A stretch of 43,632 nucleotides of DNA from a virus, in the IMG/VR virus record IMGVR_UViG_3300021440_000008, positions 1-43,632 of that record, one strand, 5' to 3'. Of this stretch, positions 1-43,632 are shown one piece after another; position 1 is the stretch's first letter; each line of letters opens with the position of its first letter. Below the pieces are notes generated by a model. That model made no database searches and was not told the DNA's origin. It saw only the letters and a list, made by a program, of their open reading frames with translations. Made by a program: the position numbers and the translations under genes.

Positions 1-22
1 CGCCGCAACGTACGACGCAACG
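1..22. repeat. Terminal overlap, left copy (identical to 43611-43632)
   Basis: The first 22 bases are identical to the last 22. Collapsing the two copies keeps the DUF6745 gene in frame; abutting the ends without overlap would shift the frame. The identity lies inside a tandem repeat, so it could be an assembly overlap, a collapsed repeat or true redundancy. No longer prefix/suffix match is present. Confidence 0.85.
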
Positions 23-199
23 ATAGCCGCAACGTACGCCGCAACGATAGACGCAACGGACGACGCAACGAGAGCCGCAACGTACGCCGCAACGAGAGAC
101 GCAACGAGAGCCGCAACGATAGACGCAACGAGAGACGCAACGTACGCCGCAACGTACGACGCAACGATAGCCGCAACGTACGCCGCAACGATAGACGCA
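1..199 (+). repeat. 12-bp coding tandem repeat, left half
   Basis: About 16 in-frame units of 12 bp with the invariant core GCAACG (Ala-Thr), then a variable codon (TAC, ATA, AGA or GAC here) and a codon that is GCC or GAC. Each unit encodes Z-X-Ala-Thr. The tract ends when the final ACG is replaced by AAA. It continues from 43465-43632 at the other window end. It is visibly GC-richer than the rest of the genome. Confidence 0.95.
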
Positions 200-952
200 A
201 AAAAGAAAATCTTTGATAAAAATTCTTACTTTAAATTAGATGTTAAAGGCATGGTTAATTTATCAGTGAGTTTGAATGTTTCAGATTTTGGTATTAAATG
301 TGCTGAGCTTGCATATAGATTTTATCAAGGTGGGAATTTTTGGTCTGGTTGGGTTTCAATGCTTAGTTTTTTTAGACATATAGCAAAGTTACCAATTGAT
401 TATTCAAAATTTGAACATTATGAAAAAGCTGCTATTCATGGTTCATTTAGATTTATCCATGAAGAATTTTGCATTATTTCAGACTTCCCTGTTAAGATTT
501 TACAAGATGAGCAACATCGAGGACACTGCTTTGATGGACCTTATATTGAATGGGCTGATGGGACAGGAATTTATCAAATTCATGGCATGAATGTACCAGC
601 TTGGATTTGCGAAACTAAGCGAGAAGACTTCACAAAAGAGATGATTTTAAGTTGTGAAAACGTAGACCATAGACGTTGTATTATTGAAAAATTAGGAATT
701 ACTCGTGCCATTGAGTTACTTGGTGCCGAAGTAGTTGATACTTATGATTCTCCAGTTGGCGGAAAGTACGAGCTTTTAATGATTGATTATACAAACACAG
801 GAGTTAAAAGACCTTATCTTAAAATGTCTAACCCTAGCTTAAAAGGTGTATTTCATATCGAGGGAGTTGGACCAAATGTCAAAACAGCTAAAGAAGCTAT
901 CATGTTTAGAAACGGGCTAAAAACTTTTATCGAACCAAAGGTATTATCATAA
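1..952 (+). CDS. DUF6745-like repeat protein, 3' part (gene continues from 43198 across the window ends)
   Basis: This is the C-terminal part of a gene that starts at 43198. The open frame runs from base 2 without a stop, so the ATG at 251 is internal. It holds the second half of the tetrapeptide repeat tract (to about 199), a Lys-rich exit, then a globular region of about 250 residues. That region carries GSFRFIHEEFCIISDFP, HRGHCFDGPYIEWADG and HGMNVPAWI, which I recognise as the DUF6745 family; no biochemical function is known to me. Joined through the 22-bp end overlap, the protein is about 454 residues. The stop overlaps the next ATG (TAATG at 949-954 region), so it is translationally coupled to the QQGDV partner. 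The family call is from memory of conserved motifs; the join is seen in the sequence. Confidence 0.8.
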   Translation, partial: AATYDATIAATYAATIDATDDATRAATYAATRDATRAATIDATRDATYAATYDATIAATYAATIDAKKKIFDKNSYFKLDVKGMVNLSVSLNVSDFGIKCAELAYRFYQGGNFWSGWVSMLSFFRHIAKLPIDYSKFEHYEKAAIHGSFRFIHEEFCIISDFPVKILQDEQHRGHCFDGPYIEWADGTGIYQIHGMNVPAWICETKREDFTKEMILSCENVDHRRCIIEKLGITRAIELLGAEVVDTYDSPVGGKYELLMIDYTNTGVKRPYLKMSNPSLKGVFHIEGVGPNVKTAKEAIMFRNGLKTFIEPKVLS

Positions 953-1317
953 TGGAAAATTTAATATATCAACAAGGTGATGTTATTTTAAAATCAATCG
1001 GTACATTCGGCATATTTGAAAAGGAATATGCTGAAATCCCAGAAGACTCAAAAGAAATCCAAGGGAACTTACTTCTTAAGGGTACTACAAATTCTCATGC
1101 TTTATATGGCGGCGAGTTTGTTCTATCTGAAAAAGATGGGGTATTATTTCTTGATGTGATTGAGCCAACTATTTTAGATCACGTTAAAGATCATCGGGTT
1201 GAATCACCGGAACACGCTGAGCACCATGCACAGATTATTGATGTGGGTCAATATTTCTTGGCTCCTCTCATGGAGTACGACCATTTAAAAGAAGAGTCTC
1301 GCCGGGTGGTGGACTAA
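952..1317 (+). CDS. QQGDV-type hypothetical protein, DUF6745 partner
   Basis: A 121-residue protein of unknown function. Residues 7-12 read QQGDVI. The C-terminal half has a His-rich stretch (SPEHAEHHAQI) followed by a glycine/tyrosine turn and EYDHLKEESRRVVD. I associate this QQGDV...HEEH...REY...RxVxD pattern with small proteins encoded next to DUF6745 genes in other genomes; this is recollection, not a search. The ATG overlaps the upstream stop, and the stop overlaps the next ATG (TAATG), so it sits in a tightly coupled operon. The clustered histidines could bind metal, but no catalytic motif is evident. Confidence 0.75.
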   Translation: MENLIYQQGDVILKSIGTFGIFEKEYAEIPEDSKEIQGNLLLKGTTNSHALYGGEFVLSEKDGVLFLDVIEPTILDHVKDHRVESPEHAEHHAQIIDVGQYFLAPLMEYDHLKEESRRVVD

Positions 1318-9860: not shown

Positions 9861-10034
9861 TTATTTTTTAGCTGTTTTTGTTTTTTTCTTAACTTTCTTC
9901 TTTGCCATTTTACTCCCTTTCTTTGCTGTTGATAGCGCGATTGCTACCGCTTGTTTTTGTGGTCTGCCGGAACTAACCAGCTCTTTTATGTTGCTTGATA
10001 TTGTGGCACGACTCATGCCTTTCTTGATCGGCAT
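9861..10034 (-). CDS. DUF6496-like protein with Lys-rich tail
   Basis: A 57-residue protein, start [19 protein letters not shown], then [18 protein letters not shown], and a strongly basic tail built of Lys/Ala/Thr. The MPIKKGMS...IxxNIKEL...[12 protein letters not shown] pattern is one I recognise as the DUF6496 family, common in phage and environmental genomes and of unknown function. A basic, compact helix-loop-helix with a histone-like tail suggests nucleic-acid binding (inference). Its ATG overlaps the SSB stop (TAATG on the minus strand). It is the last gene before the terminator. Confidence 0.8.
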
Positions 10035-10408
10035 TAGAACGGCACATCTTCGGATTGACCAAAATCTGATACTGGACCAGAATCCTGAGTTTGCTGTACT
10101 TTGCTTAAGAACTGAACAGTGTTTGCAATAATAGATGTGCTGTATTTTGTAACGCCATCTTTCTCGTACTTATCGGTTTGAAGCTTACCCTCAATATAAA
10201 CCGATGAGCCTTTCTTAAGATACTGAGAGCATATGTCTGCAAGCTTACCAAACGTCACCACATTGGACCATTCGGTACGGCTTTGATCATTACCTTCTTT
10301 ATCCTTCCACTTCTCACTGGTAGCCACTGAGAACTTTACAGCTGGTCCAGATCTTTCTGGGTCTTTACCTAAATTGCCTACTAATATAACTTTGTTTACT
10401 GATGCCAT
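10034..10408 (-). CDS. ssb: Single-stranded DNA-binding protein
   Basis: A 124-residue OB-fold SSB that coats single-stranded DNA during replication and recombination. It begins [17 protein letters not shown] after the start Met, the standard SSB N-terminus, and contains [22 protein letters not shown]. It ends SEDVPF, the acidic-Pro-Phe tip that recruits partner proteins. The start at 10408 is chosen because it matches the family N-terminus and overlaps the upstream stop; the frame extends 24 codons further without support. The linker is short compared with E. coli SSB, as usual in phages. It pairs functionally with the Sak4-like ATPase at 39665-40717. Confidence 0.95.
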
Positions 10409-10707
10409 TATAATATCTCCGATTGTTGTTGTGTTGTTTGTGTATCTTGTTTGCGCATATCTAAAATAGCCTCTCTCCATATTAACCTGATACGCTCTTG
10501 CATAGCCGGTGGTGCATTAGCTAGCCGCTTATTCATCTCAGCGAAACTATCTAGCAAACCCATGTCTGCTGCTGATTCATGGTCTAGTTTGCGTTCGAGC
10601 ATCTTCTCGAGCACTTCAACATTAGACTCCGATCGTATGACAACTTCATACTTCTCAGGGTTTCGGCGAATCAATCTCCGCGCAAACCTATTTAACTTAC
10701 CTAACAT
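10408..10707 (-). CDS. Hypothetical basic protein
   Basis: Not recognised. It is 99 residues, starting MLGKLNRFARRLIRRNPEKYE. A basic N-terminal helix is followed by charged helical segments and a Gln/Thr-rich C-terminus. The start at 10707 is chosen because AAGGA lies just upstream on the minus strand and the neighbour's stop is adjacent; the frame extends to 10752 inside the upstream gene. It is in the SSB operon, with its stop overlapping the SSB start. A DNA-replication accessory role is inferred only from context. Confidence 0.65.
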   Translation of the reverse strand: MLGKLNRFARRLIRRNPEKYEVVIRSESNVEVLEKMLERKLDHESAADMGLLDSFAEMNKRLANAPPAMQERIRLIWREAILDMRKQDTQTTQQQSEIL

Positions 10708-39473: not shown

Positions 39474-39665
39474 CTAAACGATAATATTATTTTGCTTTTC
39501 GTAGGTCTTTATATCACTAAGTTTATATAATACTTTTCCAAAGTTCTTTACAAACTTTGGACCTTTGCTAACTGTCTCGACTCTCCAATTTGCAAGAGTT
39601 CCAACTGATACTCCCCATCTTGCAGATAACTGCTCAGGTGTTAATGTTTGATTTGATTGTGCCAT
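39474..39665 (-). CDS. Small helix-turn-helix DNA-binding protein (excisionase/AlpA-like)
   Basis: A 63-residue protein: TPEQLSARWGVSVGTLANWR is a winged-HTH/MerR-like recognition unit, followed by GPKFVKNFGKVLYKLSDIKTYE, the typical wing of HTH_17/excisionase-like proteins. It would bind DNA as a regulator or architectural factor. Its start overlaps the stop of the upstream ATPase gene (TAATG on the minus strand). No integrase is present, so an excision role is unlikely; transcriptional control or origin binding is more plausible. Confidence 0.8.
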   Translation of the reverse strand: MAQSNQTLTPEQLSARWGVSVGTLANWRVETVSKGPKFVKNFGKVLYKLSDIKTYEKQNNIIV

Positions 39666-40717
39666 TATTTTATCTCCTCTGTATCGTTTGTTTTTGGTAA
39701 CGGAAACTCCTCTGGCTTAACTAATCCAAGATCAGTCCTAAGAGCTAGTAGTCCAGACTCAAGATCTTCCATCTTTAAATTCTCAATGAACGTCTTACCG
39801 CTACCGCCAAAGTGTTTAATAAGCAACTCTGTACGCTTCTTTGTAGCATCTGCGCTTCGGCCTTCCATATCTCCCAATGTGAGAGCTTCTTGAATTCCTT
39901 CAATCGCTATCTCTTTACGTTTCTTTCGATCTTCATATGACCAGTCTGGTCTGTCAAATATTTGAGTGGTGTCAGACTGTGTTGGAATGCCAGCGTGTTC
40001 GCCGCCAATGTTTAAGAAATCAAAGAACGATTTAAATGATGCAAATTTAGGGTTATCAATAGATTTTCCGTTAAGTGTATCGGTACGATCTTTAACTATC
40101 CATGCTCTATTGATAATGCCAGTAGGTTGCTCGATGCGCTCCATCTCAATTAGTAGGTCAGGTTCAAATCCAGTCTCTCCCTCTACTTTCATTTTAGTAC
40201 CGGACTTAACCATCTCTTGCTTGCCAGTATCGTCATTTGTGTTTGTTTCGTATTCGTTACCAGCTCGGCCAAGCATTAGAATGTGGATAGGTGTATTGAT
40301 ATAAGCATCTGTATAGTCCTTCCATTGGCCCTTTAAGATGCCCCAATCCATCATTGTGAAATACTTACGGCCTTTAGTTTTAAGGTAGCTATCGCATAGA
40401 TCGCGCCAAACGTGAGATATTGAGTCGATGATTACAACTTCGATACCTTCTGCTTGAACTTCTTTTAAGAACTGTAGCATATCCTTAAACGATTTACCTT
40501 TGTGCGTAAATAGCTCTACTCCTGCTTTATTTGCGAGAGGAATCATAAAGTCAGATCCCTTCTCAGTATCAAAGAAGGCTATCGCTTTCTTTTTTGATTT
40601 TGCTGCTAAGCCCAATGCTATCTCAAACGACGTTCTTGTTTTACCACTGCCGGCAAATCCAAAAATACCGATTTTTGCGTAAGCCGTTCCCATAACTGCT
40701 TTTTTTAATAATGACAT
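39665..40717 (-). CDS. Sak4-like RecA-fold ATPase (single-strand annealing recombinase)
   Basis: A 350-residue P-loop ATPase. Walker A is GFAGSGKT (20-27), followed by FFDTEKGSD (50-56) and a Walker B strand EVVIIDSISH (Asp98). The layout and length match phage Sak4-type RecA-core proteins, which promote annealing/recombination with a cognate SSB. An SSB is encoded at 10034-10408. The C-terminal region (KKRTELLIKHFGGSGKTFIENL) is helical. It is the middle gene of a minus-strand operon; the start follows GGGAGAAAG. Other RecA-like AAA ATPases are possible, but the fold call is solid. Confidence 0.8.
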   Translation of the reverse strand: MSLLKKAVMGTAYAKIGIFGFAGSGKTRTSFEIALGLAAKSKKKAIAFFDTEKGSDFMIPLANKAGVELFTHKGKSFKDMLQFLKEVQAEGIEVVIIDSISHVWRDLCDSYLKTKGRKYFTMMDWGILKGQWKDYTDAYINTPIHILMLGRAGNEYETNTNDDTGKQEMVKSGTKMKVEGETGFEPDLLIEMERIEQPTGIINRAWIVKDRTDTLNGKSIDNPKFASFKSFFDFLNIGGEHAGIPTQSDTTQIFDRPDWSYEDRKKRKEIAIEGIQEALTLGDMEGRSADATKKRTELLIKHFGGSGKTFIENLKMEDLESGLLALRTDLGLVKPEEFPLPKTNDTEEIK

Positions 40718-41067: not shown

Positions 41068-42456
41068 GTGATAATACTTAGACCATATCAAGAGAAACTA
41101 ATCTCAGACGTTAGGCTTGAATTGCAGCGCGGTAATCGTGGCGTACTTATGCAATCTGCTACCGGCTCGGGCAAGACCGCAACAACTGCTTATATGATAT
41201 CAGAAGCATTTAAGCGTGGTAAGTCTGTATGGTTCATAGTTCATAGAGAAGAGCTAATAAAACAGTCTAGCCTTGCATTTGAAAAAATAAATCTTTCGCA
41301 TGGAATAGTAGCCGCTGGTTGGCCTACTAACTATAAATCTAAAATACAAATATGCTCTATTATGACATTAAAGAACAGACTTCATATGCTATCAAGACCT
41401 GACATGATTGTATATGACGAATGTCAATACATGGGTGCTGATACGTGGGATTACATATTTGGCGAAAACCCAAACGCATATCACATTGGCCTTAGCGCAA
41501 CGCCTTGGCGTTTAGATGGTAAAGGTTTTAGAAAATATTTTCAGTCAATGGTTAAAGGCCCTTCTGTTAAATGGCTTATAGATAATAAGTATTTATCTGA
41601 CTATACGATATTTGCACCGACAAATTTTGATGCGTCTCAGTTTTCTATATCTAAGGGAGATTATGACTCTAAAGAAGTTAGCGAGTTCATGGAGAAACCA
41701 ACAATAGTAGGAGATTGCTATGAGAAGTGGGCCAAGTACGCTTATGGGAAGAAAACAATAGCGTTTGCGCCAAGTGTTCAGTTCTCTAAGAACTTAGTCG
41801 AGTCGTTTCAATCTCGCGGAATATCAGCTAGACACTTAGATGGTAATACCGACTCATACGAGCGTGATAAAGCCATTAGAGAATATGCAAGTGGTGATGT
41901 AATGCTTCTGTCTAACTGTAACTTATTTGTTGAAGGGTTCGATGTTCCATCGGTTGAGGCTATGCTTAACTGCAAACCGACCAAATCACTAGCTCGTTAT
42001 TTACAGGCAATAGGTAGAGTTCTTAGGCCATCAGAAGGAAAAGAAAAAGCAATTATCATAGATCAAGTTAATGCTTGCATGGAGCATGGATTTCCAAGAG
42101 ACGAAATAGAATGGTCATTAGATGAGCGCGAAAAGAAACGCGCAAAGAAAGGAGATAAACCAGAATCACCAACCAAAGTCTGCGGAACTTGTCTGTGCGC
42201 GAATCATGCGGCGCATAGGTTCTGTGATAACTGTGGGGCAGCTTTTGAAATAAAAGAAAGATCTGGACCTGATCAAATAGATGGTGACTTGGAAGAAGTG
42301 AATGAGGCAGAATTTAAAAAACGTAGGAAATTAGAAGAAAAAAACGTCAAGTCATTGGAAGAAGCAATACAGCTTGGTGTACAGCGTGGCTATAAGAATC
42401 CGCGATGGTGGGCTGAAAACAAATATAGATATAAGAAATGGGGAGAGTCAAAGTGA
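41068..42456 (+). CDS. Superfamily 2 DEAD/DEAH-type helicase with C-terminal zinc ribbon
   Basis: A 462-residue helicase that would unwind or remodel DNA using ATP. Motifs are RPYQ (Q-motif-like, 5-8), Walker A SATGSGKT (30-37), DECQ (117-120, in place of DEAH), LSATPWR (142-148) and QAIGRVLRP (motif VI, from 313). A four-cysteine ribbon follows (Cys372, Cys375, Cys386, Cys389), then a charged tail. This UvsW/RecG-like small type is frequent in phages lacking a DNA polymerase. The start is GTG with GAGG upstream. It overlaps the next gene by GTGA and heads the operon that runs through the circle junction. Confidence 0.92.
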   Translation: MIILRPYQEKLISDVRLELQRGNRGVLMQSATGSGKTATTAYMISEAFKRGKSVWFIVHREELIKQSSLAFEKINLSHGIVAAGWPTNYKSKIQICSIMTLKNRLHMLSRPDMIVYDECQYMGADTWDYIFGENPNAYHIGLSATPWRLDGKGFRKYFQSMVKGPSVKWLIDNKYLSDYTIFAPTNFDASQFSISKGDYDSKEVSEFMEKPTIVGDCYEKWAKYAYGKKTIAFAPSVQFSKNLVESFQSRGISARHLDGNTDSYERDKAIREYASGDVMLLSNCNLFVEGFDVPSVEAMLNCKPTKSLARYLQAIGRVLRPSEGKEKAIIIDQVNACMEHGFPRDEIEWSLDEREKKRAKKGDKPESPTKVCGTCLCANHAAHRFCDNCGAAFEIKERSGPDQIDGDLEEVNEAEFKKRRKLEEKNVKSLEEAIQLGVQRGYKNPRWWAENKYRYKKWGESK

Positions 42457-43098: not shown

Positions 43099-43175
43099 GT
43101 AAGCCAATGAGTGTATTAGTTATAGCCATCTGGCTAATATTCGTCTGCGTGTATTTTGGAACAGTTTTAATTTAA
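43095..43175 (+). CDS. Small membrane peptide
   Basis: A 26-residue frame beginning MSKPMS, followed by one hydrophobic span (VLVIAIWLIFVCVYFG) to its end. The ATG overlaps the stop of the zinc-finger gene. It resembles the other one-span minigenes at 3797 and 6223. Support is coupling and membrane character only. Confidence 0.45.
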   Translation: MSKPMSVLVIAIWLIFVCVYFGTVLI

Positions 43176-43197
43176 TAAATAACAAAGGGAGAAGATA

Positions 43198-43632
43198 ATG
43201 AAAAAATATGAATTAACAGAAGAACATCGAGCACAACTTAAACCTTGGGCTGATAAATGGATAGAAAATGGTCTACGAACTAGGTCTATGGACGATATAG
43301 ATAAAAGTGAAATGGTAAAGGCTATAAATGGAATGTATGAGGCTGCTGGTAAAAAAGCACCGAGAGTAGTTTTTACACCAAGTCCTTTCGTTGCAAGATT
43401 CGCTACCGGATTTGCTGCCGCTATATGGTGGAAAAGAAAAAATCCAAAAAGCACTTTATCAACGGACGACGCAACGTACGCCGCAACGAGAGCCGCAACG
43501 ATAGCCGCAACGGACGCCGCAACGAGAGCCGCAACGTACGACGCAACGAGAGCCGCAACGTACGACGCAACGAGAGCCGCAACGTACGCCGCAACGAGAG
43601 ACGCAACGAACGCCGCAACGTACGACGCAACG
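43198..43632 (+). CDS. DUF6745-like repeat protein, 5' part (continues at base 1)
   Basis: The true start of the junction-spanning gene: ATG 43198 with GGGAGAAG upstream. The first about 80 residues (ELTEEHRAQLKPWADKWIENGL, then a short acidic helix, NGMYEAAGKKAPRVVFTPSP) match the N-terminus I recall for DUF6745 proteins, where an LTxEQ...KW...GL...T start precedes a 'YxxxGxxxP...SP' block. After NPKSTLST the Z-X-Ala-Thr repeats begin at residue 90. No stop occurs before the window end; the last codon is ACG. With the part at 1-952 the protein is about 454 residues, with repeats at about 90-205. Family members I recall also carry long, hypervariable four-residue repeats at this position. Confidence 0.85.
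   Translation, partial: MKKYELTEEHRAQLKPWADKWIENGLRTRSMDDIDKSEMVKAINGMYEAAGKKAPRVVFTPSPFVARFATGFAAAIWWKRKNPKSTLSTDDATYAATRAATIAATDAATRAATYDATRAATYDATRAATYAATRDATNAATYDAT
43465..43632 (+). repeat. 12-bp coding tandem repeat, right half
   Basis: Fourteen in-frame 12-bp units (Z-X-Ala-Thr) before the window end. The Z codon is TAC, AGA, ATA, GAC or AAC; the X codon is GCC or GAC; GCA and ACG never vary. The last two units overlap the first two at the left end (22 identical bases). Confidence 0.95.
43611..43632. repeat. Terminal overlap, right copy (identical to 1-22)
   Basis: Identical to the first 22 bases. See the left copy: collapsing both yields a circle of about 43,610 bp and one uninterrupted DUF6745-like gene. 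Confidence 0.85.

Follow-up and report, generated by a model that had tools for sequence, protein, structure and literature searches.

A rapidly changing four-residue repeat array in a DUF6745 phage protein, very probably reshuffled by recombination under amino-acid selection

A 43,632-nucleotide stretch of viral DNA (IMG/VR record IMGVR_UViG_3300021440_000008; hereafter the window) ends within a 12-bp coding repeat whose units read Z-X-Ala-Thr, Z and X being variable residues. The initial annotation proposed that this locus is hypervariable, raising the questions of how such an array changes and what its variants might serve. The array is real: 14 units, its 5′ half, occupy window positions 43465-43632 on the plus strand, and the same frame is resumed at window 1-199, where the 3′ part of the array (2-199, plus strand) lies. 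The window begins and ends with the same 22 bases, an exact overlap common to both contig ends (CGCCGCAACGTACGACGCAACG) and positioned inside the array. Overlapping the ends by these 22 bp yields a single ORF encoding an N-terminal domain (N-domain; 43198-43464), the (Z-X-Ala-Thr)n array and a DUF6745 domain (to 952); abutting the ends without the overlap breaks the frame. By codon count the joined ORF contains 28 clean units and a degenerate 29th ending in Ala-Lys (IDAK), matching the roughly 29 units first estimated across the junction, with the reservation that unit number and order are as assembled and, since the assembly ends within the array, provisional. Within the 28 clean units the Z codons are TAC (10), AGA (9), ATA (5), GAC (3) and AAC (1), the X codons are GCC (17) and GAC (11), and the fixed pair is invariably GCA for Ala and ACG for Thr (28/28 each); the earlier counts of six Ile at Z and twelve Asp at X hold once the degenerate last unit is included. 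The minus strand (43167-43631) is also open through the array, encoding 154 aa with Val-Ala-Ala/Ser repeats, a frame that probably arises simply because the units lack stop codons.

The N-domain (plus strand, start ATG 43198) spans about 89 aa, contains the motif RVVFTPSPFVARFATGFAAAIW and shows 33-67% identity across an alignment with seven relatives; in one of them (L108) it is predicted by AF2 to be mostly helical, with pLDDT ~90-96. Downstream of the array, a linker and the DUF6745 domain (200-952, plus strand, stop codon 950-952) were recognized by PF20530 (E=1.7e-13) and phrog_31813 (E=3.5e-15), the C-terminal region scoring 50.8 bits against the curated Pfam cut-off of 27. The DUF6745 stop codon is overlapped at window 952 by the ATG of a partner gene (952-1317, plus strand) encoding a His-rich protein of 121 aa. 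Its family, whose members are mostly ~100-140 aa, lies next to the array gene at 81 of the loci compared, and the alignment shows histidines, and an Asp at the C terminus, that never vary. AF2 predicts a mainly or entirely beta fold plus a C-terminal helix (pLDDT 85). The partner matched no Pfam family, and its HxH...H pattern allows only a guess at a metal-binding, cupin-like role. Neither the DUF6745 fold nor the partner fold matched the PDB at E<=0.001, and in BFVD at the same threshold the matches were confined to DUF6745 and uncharacterised phage proteins.

The genome is that of a ~43-kb tailed phage whose terminase is 52% identical to those of Xanthomonas CP2-type phages. Upstream of the array gene lies a DNA helicase gene (41068-42456, plus strand; phrog_16, E=6.5e-98), which puts the array gene with the replication/early genes and apart from the virion genes. 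The minus strand encodes a single-strand DNA binding protein (SSB; 10034-10480, phrog_44, E=4.2e-42) and a Sak4-like ssDNA annealing protein (39665-40717, phrog_124, E=6.2e-15), the latter a candidate, judged from its sequence, for a recombination function of this phage. The array protein had no credible match among the defence models of PADLOC.

The absence of silent variation that first drew attention to the locus is correct for the window array but is weak evidence alone. The array contains six minor nucleotides, and 10 of the 34 possible non-stop single changes in a unit are silent, so that no silent change would be expected with a probability of ~0.12. Nor does silent invariance in one array show the diversifying selection originally read from it, because rapid homogenisation also erases silent variation. 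The case for a hypervariable array is carried by the family data, not by the window array. An IMG/VR alignment search gave 207 relatives, of which 80 were retrieved, and a genome search found 16; DUF6745 is carried by 2 of 385 Alphaproteobacteria genomes and is thus uncommon among the cellular genomes sampled. Most of the retrieved phage relatives have a Z-X-Ala-Thr array at the same position, sharing the four-residue plan that the initial annotation had attributed, in similar form, to bacterial family members, and complete arrays range from 6 to 94 units. The fixed pairs Gln-Leu, Ser-Leu and Gln-Val also occur within the DUF6745 family itself. Six candidates suggested by DNA pattern (L010, L016-L019, L021) were rejected as relatives, being unrelated low-complexity proteins. 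At the array end of L007 and L045 (about L007 3840-3935) there is an apparent frameshift before DUF6745, after which the register becomes Arg-Ala-Thr-Gln and the ORF stops.

Diversity statistics were calculated from 68 arrays with 15 units or more. Per nucleotide, diversity was 0.62 at unit position 1, 0.49 at position 2 and 0.39 at position 5, and 0.01-0.14 elsewhere. Third bases are near-fixed inside each array and different from array to array, and any two Ala/Thr codons match with a probability of 0.958 within an array versus 0.34/0.38 between arrays, a combination that indicates concerted evolution. Hypervariability at Z and X, as proposed from the window, is therefore a property of these arrays, and it is accompanied by concerted evolution. 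Silent variants in the family are rare, not absent (minor alleles at 90 of 626 silent opportunities versus 447 of 1540 replacement opportunities). In L099 and L130 the DUF6745 domains are 97% identical, with a pS of 0.30, yet every array unit differs: all X residues are Ala and all Thr codons ACC in L099, and Asn and ACG in L130. Z stays diverse in the arrays while X and the Ala/Thr codons are homogenised. DUF6745 itself, with pN.02 versus pS.30, is under purifying selection. A conserved DNA-level site, GCAACG, was rejected as an explanation, relatives using GCC ACT, GCG ACC, GCT ACA and others.

How rapidly the array changes is evident from four contig pairs that have identical 3′ flanks (3.7-4.7 kb) and different arrays. 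L006 and L093 show no mismatch in 4714 bp of flank, whereas 312 bp of aligned array contain 12 substitutions (Fisher p=2.7e-15); all 12 are replacements, none silent, in 26 aligned units, and 11 units besides are unpaired, some unpaired units in these pair alignments being contig ends rather than true indels. L099 and L101 likewise have no mismatch in 3719 bp of flank versus 9 in 264 array bp (p=2.2e-11), again all replacements with none silent. L098 and L100 share 3847 identical flank bases, with divergence beyond, and their arrays differ by 12 substitutions in 444 bp (11 replacement, 1 silent). L064 and L068, which look like isolate genomes from the format of their IMG identifiers, are identical over 4597/4597 flank positions and carry arrays of 27+ and 21 units. 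On the 5′ side, L073, L074 and L075 are identical over 1500/1500 flank positions and have arrays 2-5 units apart. Different arrays at identical flanks mean that the array turns over far faster than its surroundings, the reverse of the identical arrays that, according to the initial annotation, would argue against active diversification.

The arrays were compared as assembled contigs, most of them built from short metagenomic reads, and the array is where many of these contigs stop, among them the window and 32 of the 79 viral contigs with such arrays. The arrays could thus be real while the differences between contigs arose from wrong short-read graph paths through the repeats. We consider this quite improbable, as the longest internal repeats of complete arrays are 19-104 nt, within usual read lengths, and the differences lie directly beside unique flank (L006/L093, L099/L101) and involve unit types, not order alone. 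Moreover, the same pattern is seen in the cultured Tweety-group phages described below.

Between near-identical contigs, two-base unit changes (GAC to CGC, TGG to GAG) swap existing unit types, which together with shared multi-unit words points to shuffling of units rather than point mutation. This fits recombination or slippage, the mechanisms suggested at the outset. On the other side, unit order is near-random, with identical neighbours slightly rarer than expected, a pattern that single-unit slippage alone would not produce. Repeated multi-unit runs beyond chance were detected in only 18 of 62 arrays, a count that may be lowered by the failure of arrays with long internal repeats to assemble. 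In the 76-unit array of L114, Asp-Ala-Ala-Thr and Ser-Ala-Ala-Thr units follow each other in almost perfect alternation for ~50 units, whereas other arrays are near-random in order; this array is possibly a very recent expansion.

A dedicated targeted mutator, such as a diversity-generating retroelement (DGR), could instead rewrite nucleotides 1, 2 and 5. It would account for the confinement of variation mainly to three nucleotides per unit, and the array resembles DGR targets in varying at few codon positions and in its stop-proof codons; as in the variable codons of DGRs, most Z codons are NNC and most X codons G-N-C. However, no reverse transcriptase was found in the phage's own record (PF00078 search), in agreement with the initial annotation, and a tandem-repeat scan revealed no other array copy that might act as a template. 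Furthermore, adenines in the fixed Ala-Thr codons almost never change, Lys accounts for 0.8% in NNG arrays where an adenine template would favour it, and the two-base changes exchange existing unit types. The array also departs from DGRs in its tandem arrangement and in changing by whole-unit replacement and indels. A DGR was rejected on the absent reverse transcriptase, the absent template and the wrong substitution spectrum, and a targeted mutator of any kind appears extremely unlikely.

When the third base of the Z codon is C, Z is mainly Arg, Asp or Tyr; when it is G, mainly Trp, Arg or Glu. The classes encoded by these differing codon sets are nevertheless alike (NNC versus NNG: aromatic.21/.27, acidic.25/.23, basic.30/.28; Pro ~0), which indicates selection on the amino acid. 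Rapid turnover of the array through recombination, coupled to selection on the residue at Z, is very probable. Another reading holds that the array is a structural spacer, either a long helix rich in Ala or a disordered linker, nearly neutral in length and order, subject to minisatellite drift and silently invariant through homogenisation. Concerted evolution alone would account for the silent invariance, array lengths span the full 6 to 94 units, and AF2 renders the L108 array as a low-confidence helix (pLDDT ~37-70) beside a confident DUF6745 domain. Opposite charges at neighbouring Z positions are enriched 1.2x (339 versus 283 expected), compatible with i,i+4 salt bridges, and in the Tweety gp54 protein the repeat number has been proposed to determine how the termini are positioned relative to each other. 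A neutral spacer is difficult to reconcile with the same aromatic, acidic and basic mixture at Z under different third bases, with the avoidance of Pro and aliphatics, or with Z remaining diverse while X and the Ala/Thr codons homogenise. In addition, separate small array ORFs occur beside array-less DUF6745 genes in L033 (4705-5217 and 5686-6147) and L056 (2762-3385), so the array need not join two domains and is probably a module, not only a linker. On this evidence we judge the spacer unlikely and favour selection at Z, with the array likely to form a changeable interaction surface; the "combinatorial binding surface" of the initial annotation is an inference. A beta-solenoid with fixed units per turn was unsupported, autocorrelation of Z being absent at lags 1-15.

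A comparable array is known from mycobacteriophage Tweety, whose gp54 has an array of 48 tetrapeptide units in which the silent bases are fixed (PMC2884959). Like the window protein, gp54 has conserved N- and C-terminal parts around an array of 12-bp units, in each of which two positions hold fixed small residues and two vary, the variation falling at first and second codon positions; it differs in its fixed pair, Ala-Ala, and its variable pair, [G/W/Q/E/R][S/Y]. Across four isolates of the Tweety group the 426-nt 5′ part of the gene is identical and the arrays comprise 49, 31, 17 and 39 units (including the final boundary unit), with no silent variation. This resemblance is not membership of the gp54 family (phrog_3416, including Che8 gp57 and PMC gp51): no homology of gp54 to the N-domain, DUF6745 or the partner was detected (hhalign probability 0.1%, no HMM match), and the likeness is in working, not descent. 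According to reviews (PMC9262239, PMC8549241), gp54 mutants with altered repeat number adjust counter-defence directed at the Phrann and MichelleMyBell prophages; counter-defence has been shown for Tweety only. Within the DUF6745 family, gp38 of the Mycobacterium prophage prophiGD102-1 carries 46 units of [G/R/W][D/G]-Gln-Leu with no silent variation and the partner gene upstream; its fixed pair, Gln-Leu, differs from the Ala-Thr of the window. Bordetella phage BMP-1 bbp36 VR2, as cited in PMC2884959, is also a coding repeat array whose number varies between isolates, but its element is 24 bp.

Taken together, these results favour, as on balance probable, a model of a fast-evolving array in an early phage protein that is driven by recombination, selected at Z as a changeable interaction surface and tuned for counter-defence. 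The protein, encoded together with its small His-rich partner, would consist of the N-domain, [Z-X-Ala-Thr]n and DUF6745. Recombination between tandem repeats (slippage, unequal exchange, short unit-to-unit conversion), perhaps assisted by the phage Sak4 and SSB, would add, delete and replace whole 12-bp units, homogenising silent positions per phage while redistributing existing Z/X variants. Selection would hold Z at an aromatic/basic/acidic mixture, providing a changeable surface on fixed domains. The most likely use of such a surface would be to retune the protein as the host or prophage factors it faces vary, as with the repeat changes of Tweety gp54, and counter-defence, by this analogy, is plausible though somewhat short of an even chance. 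More doubtful still is the wider proposal that phages use the array as a general module for diversification without a DGR, attached to early proteins that are not related to one another (DUF6745, Tweety gp54, stand-alone array ORFs), in which fast replacement of units would keep re-sorting an alphabet of three residue classes (aromatic, acidic, basic) to suit changing host or prophage targets.

An array style known from one mycobacteriophage group also occurs in another phage protein family, an unrelated and widespread one with its own partner gene, and near-identical phages differing chiefly in the array offer a clean system for retroelement-free hypervariation. If the Tweety analogy is true, natural array states may record the defences recently met by phages, and the partner gene and DUF6745 would be concrete counter-defence candidates.

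Among the papers searched, nothing was found on DUF6745. Bacterial DUF6745 proteins have this C-terminal domain too, together with the partner gene, located upstream; the partner is present at the bacterial DUF6745 loci examined, including those of Streptomyces, Deinococcus, Methylobacterium and a Nocardia plasmid. The copies of Streptomyces, Deinococcus, Methylobacterium and Nonomuraea are without an array, and those of the first three genera adjoin STM4011-4015 genes, radical-SAM proteins among them; given these array-less bacterial copies beside radical-SAM clusters, the core function may be other than counter-defence. In L022, L023, L024 and L124, bacterial DUF6745 and partner genes neighbour STM4011-4015 genes (radical SAM, hydrolase), and the array is replaced by LRR-like or other N-termini. 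The Nocardia farcinica plasmid protein carries a [R/W/G/E][A/D]-Gln-Val array. L146 and L147 (Nocardia farcinica NCTC11134 plasmids 3 and 2) are one locus present twice, differing by five single-base gaps; on plasmid 3 the array copy has a frameshift that probably stems from sequencing errors.
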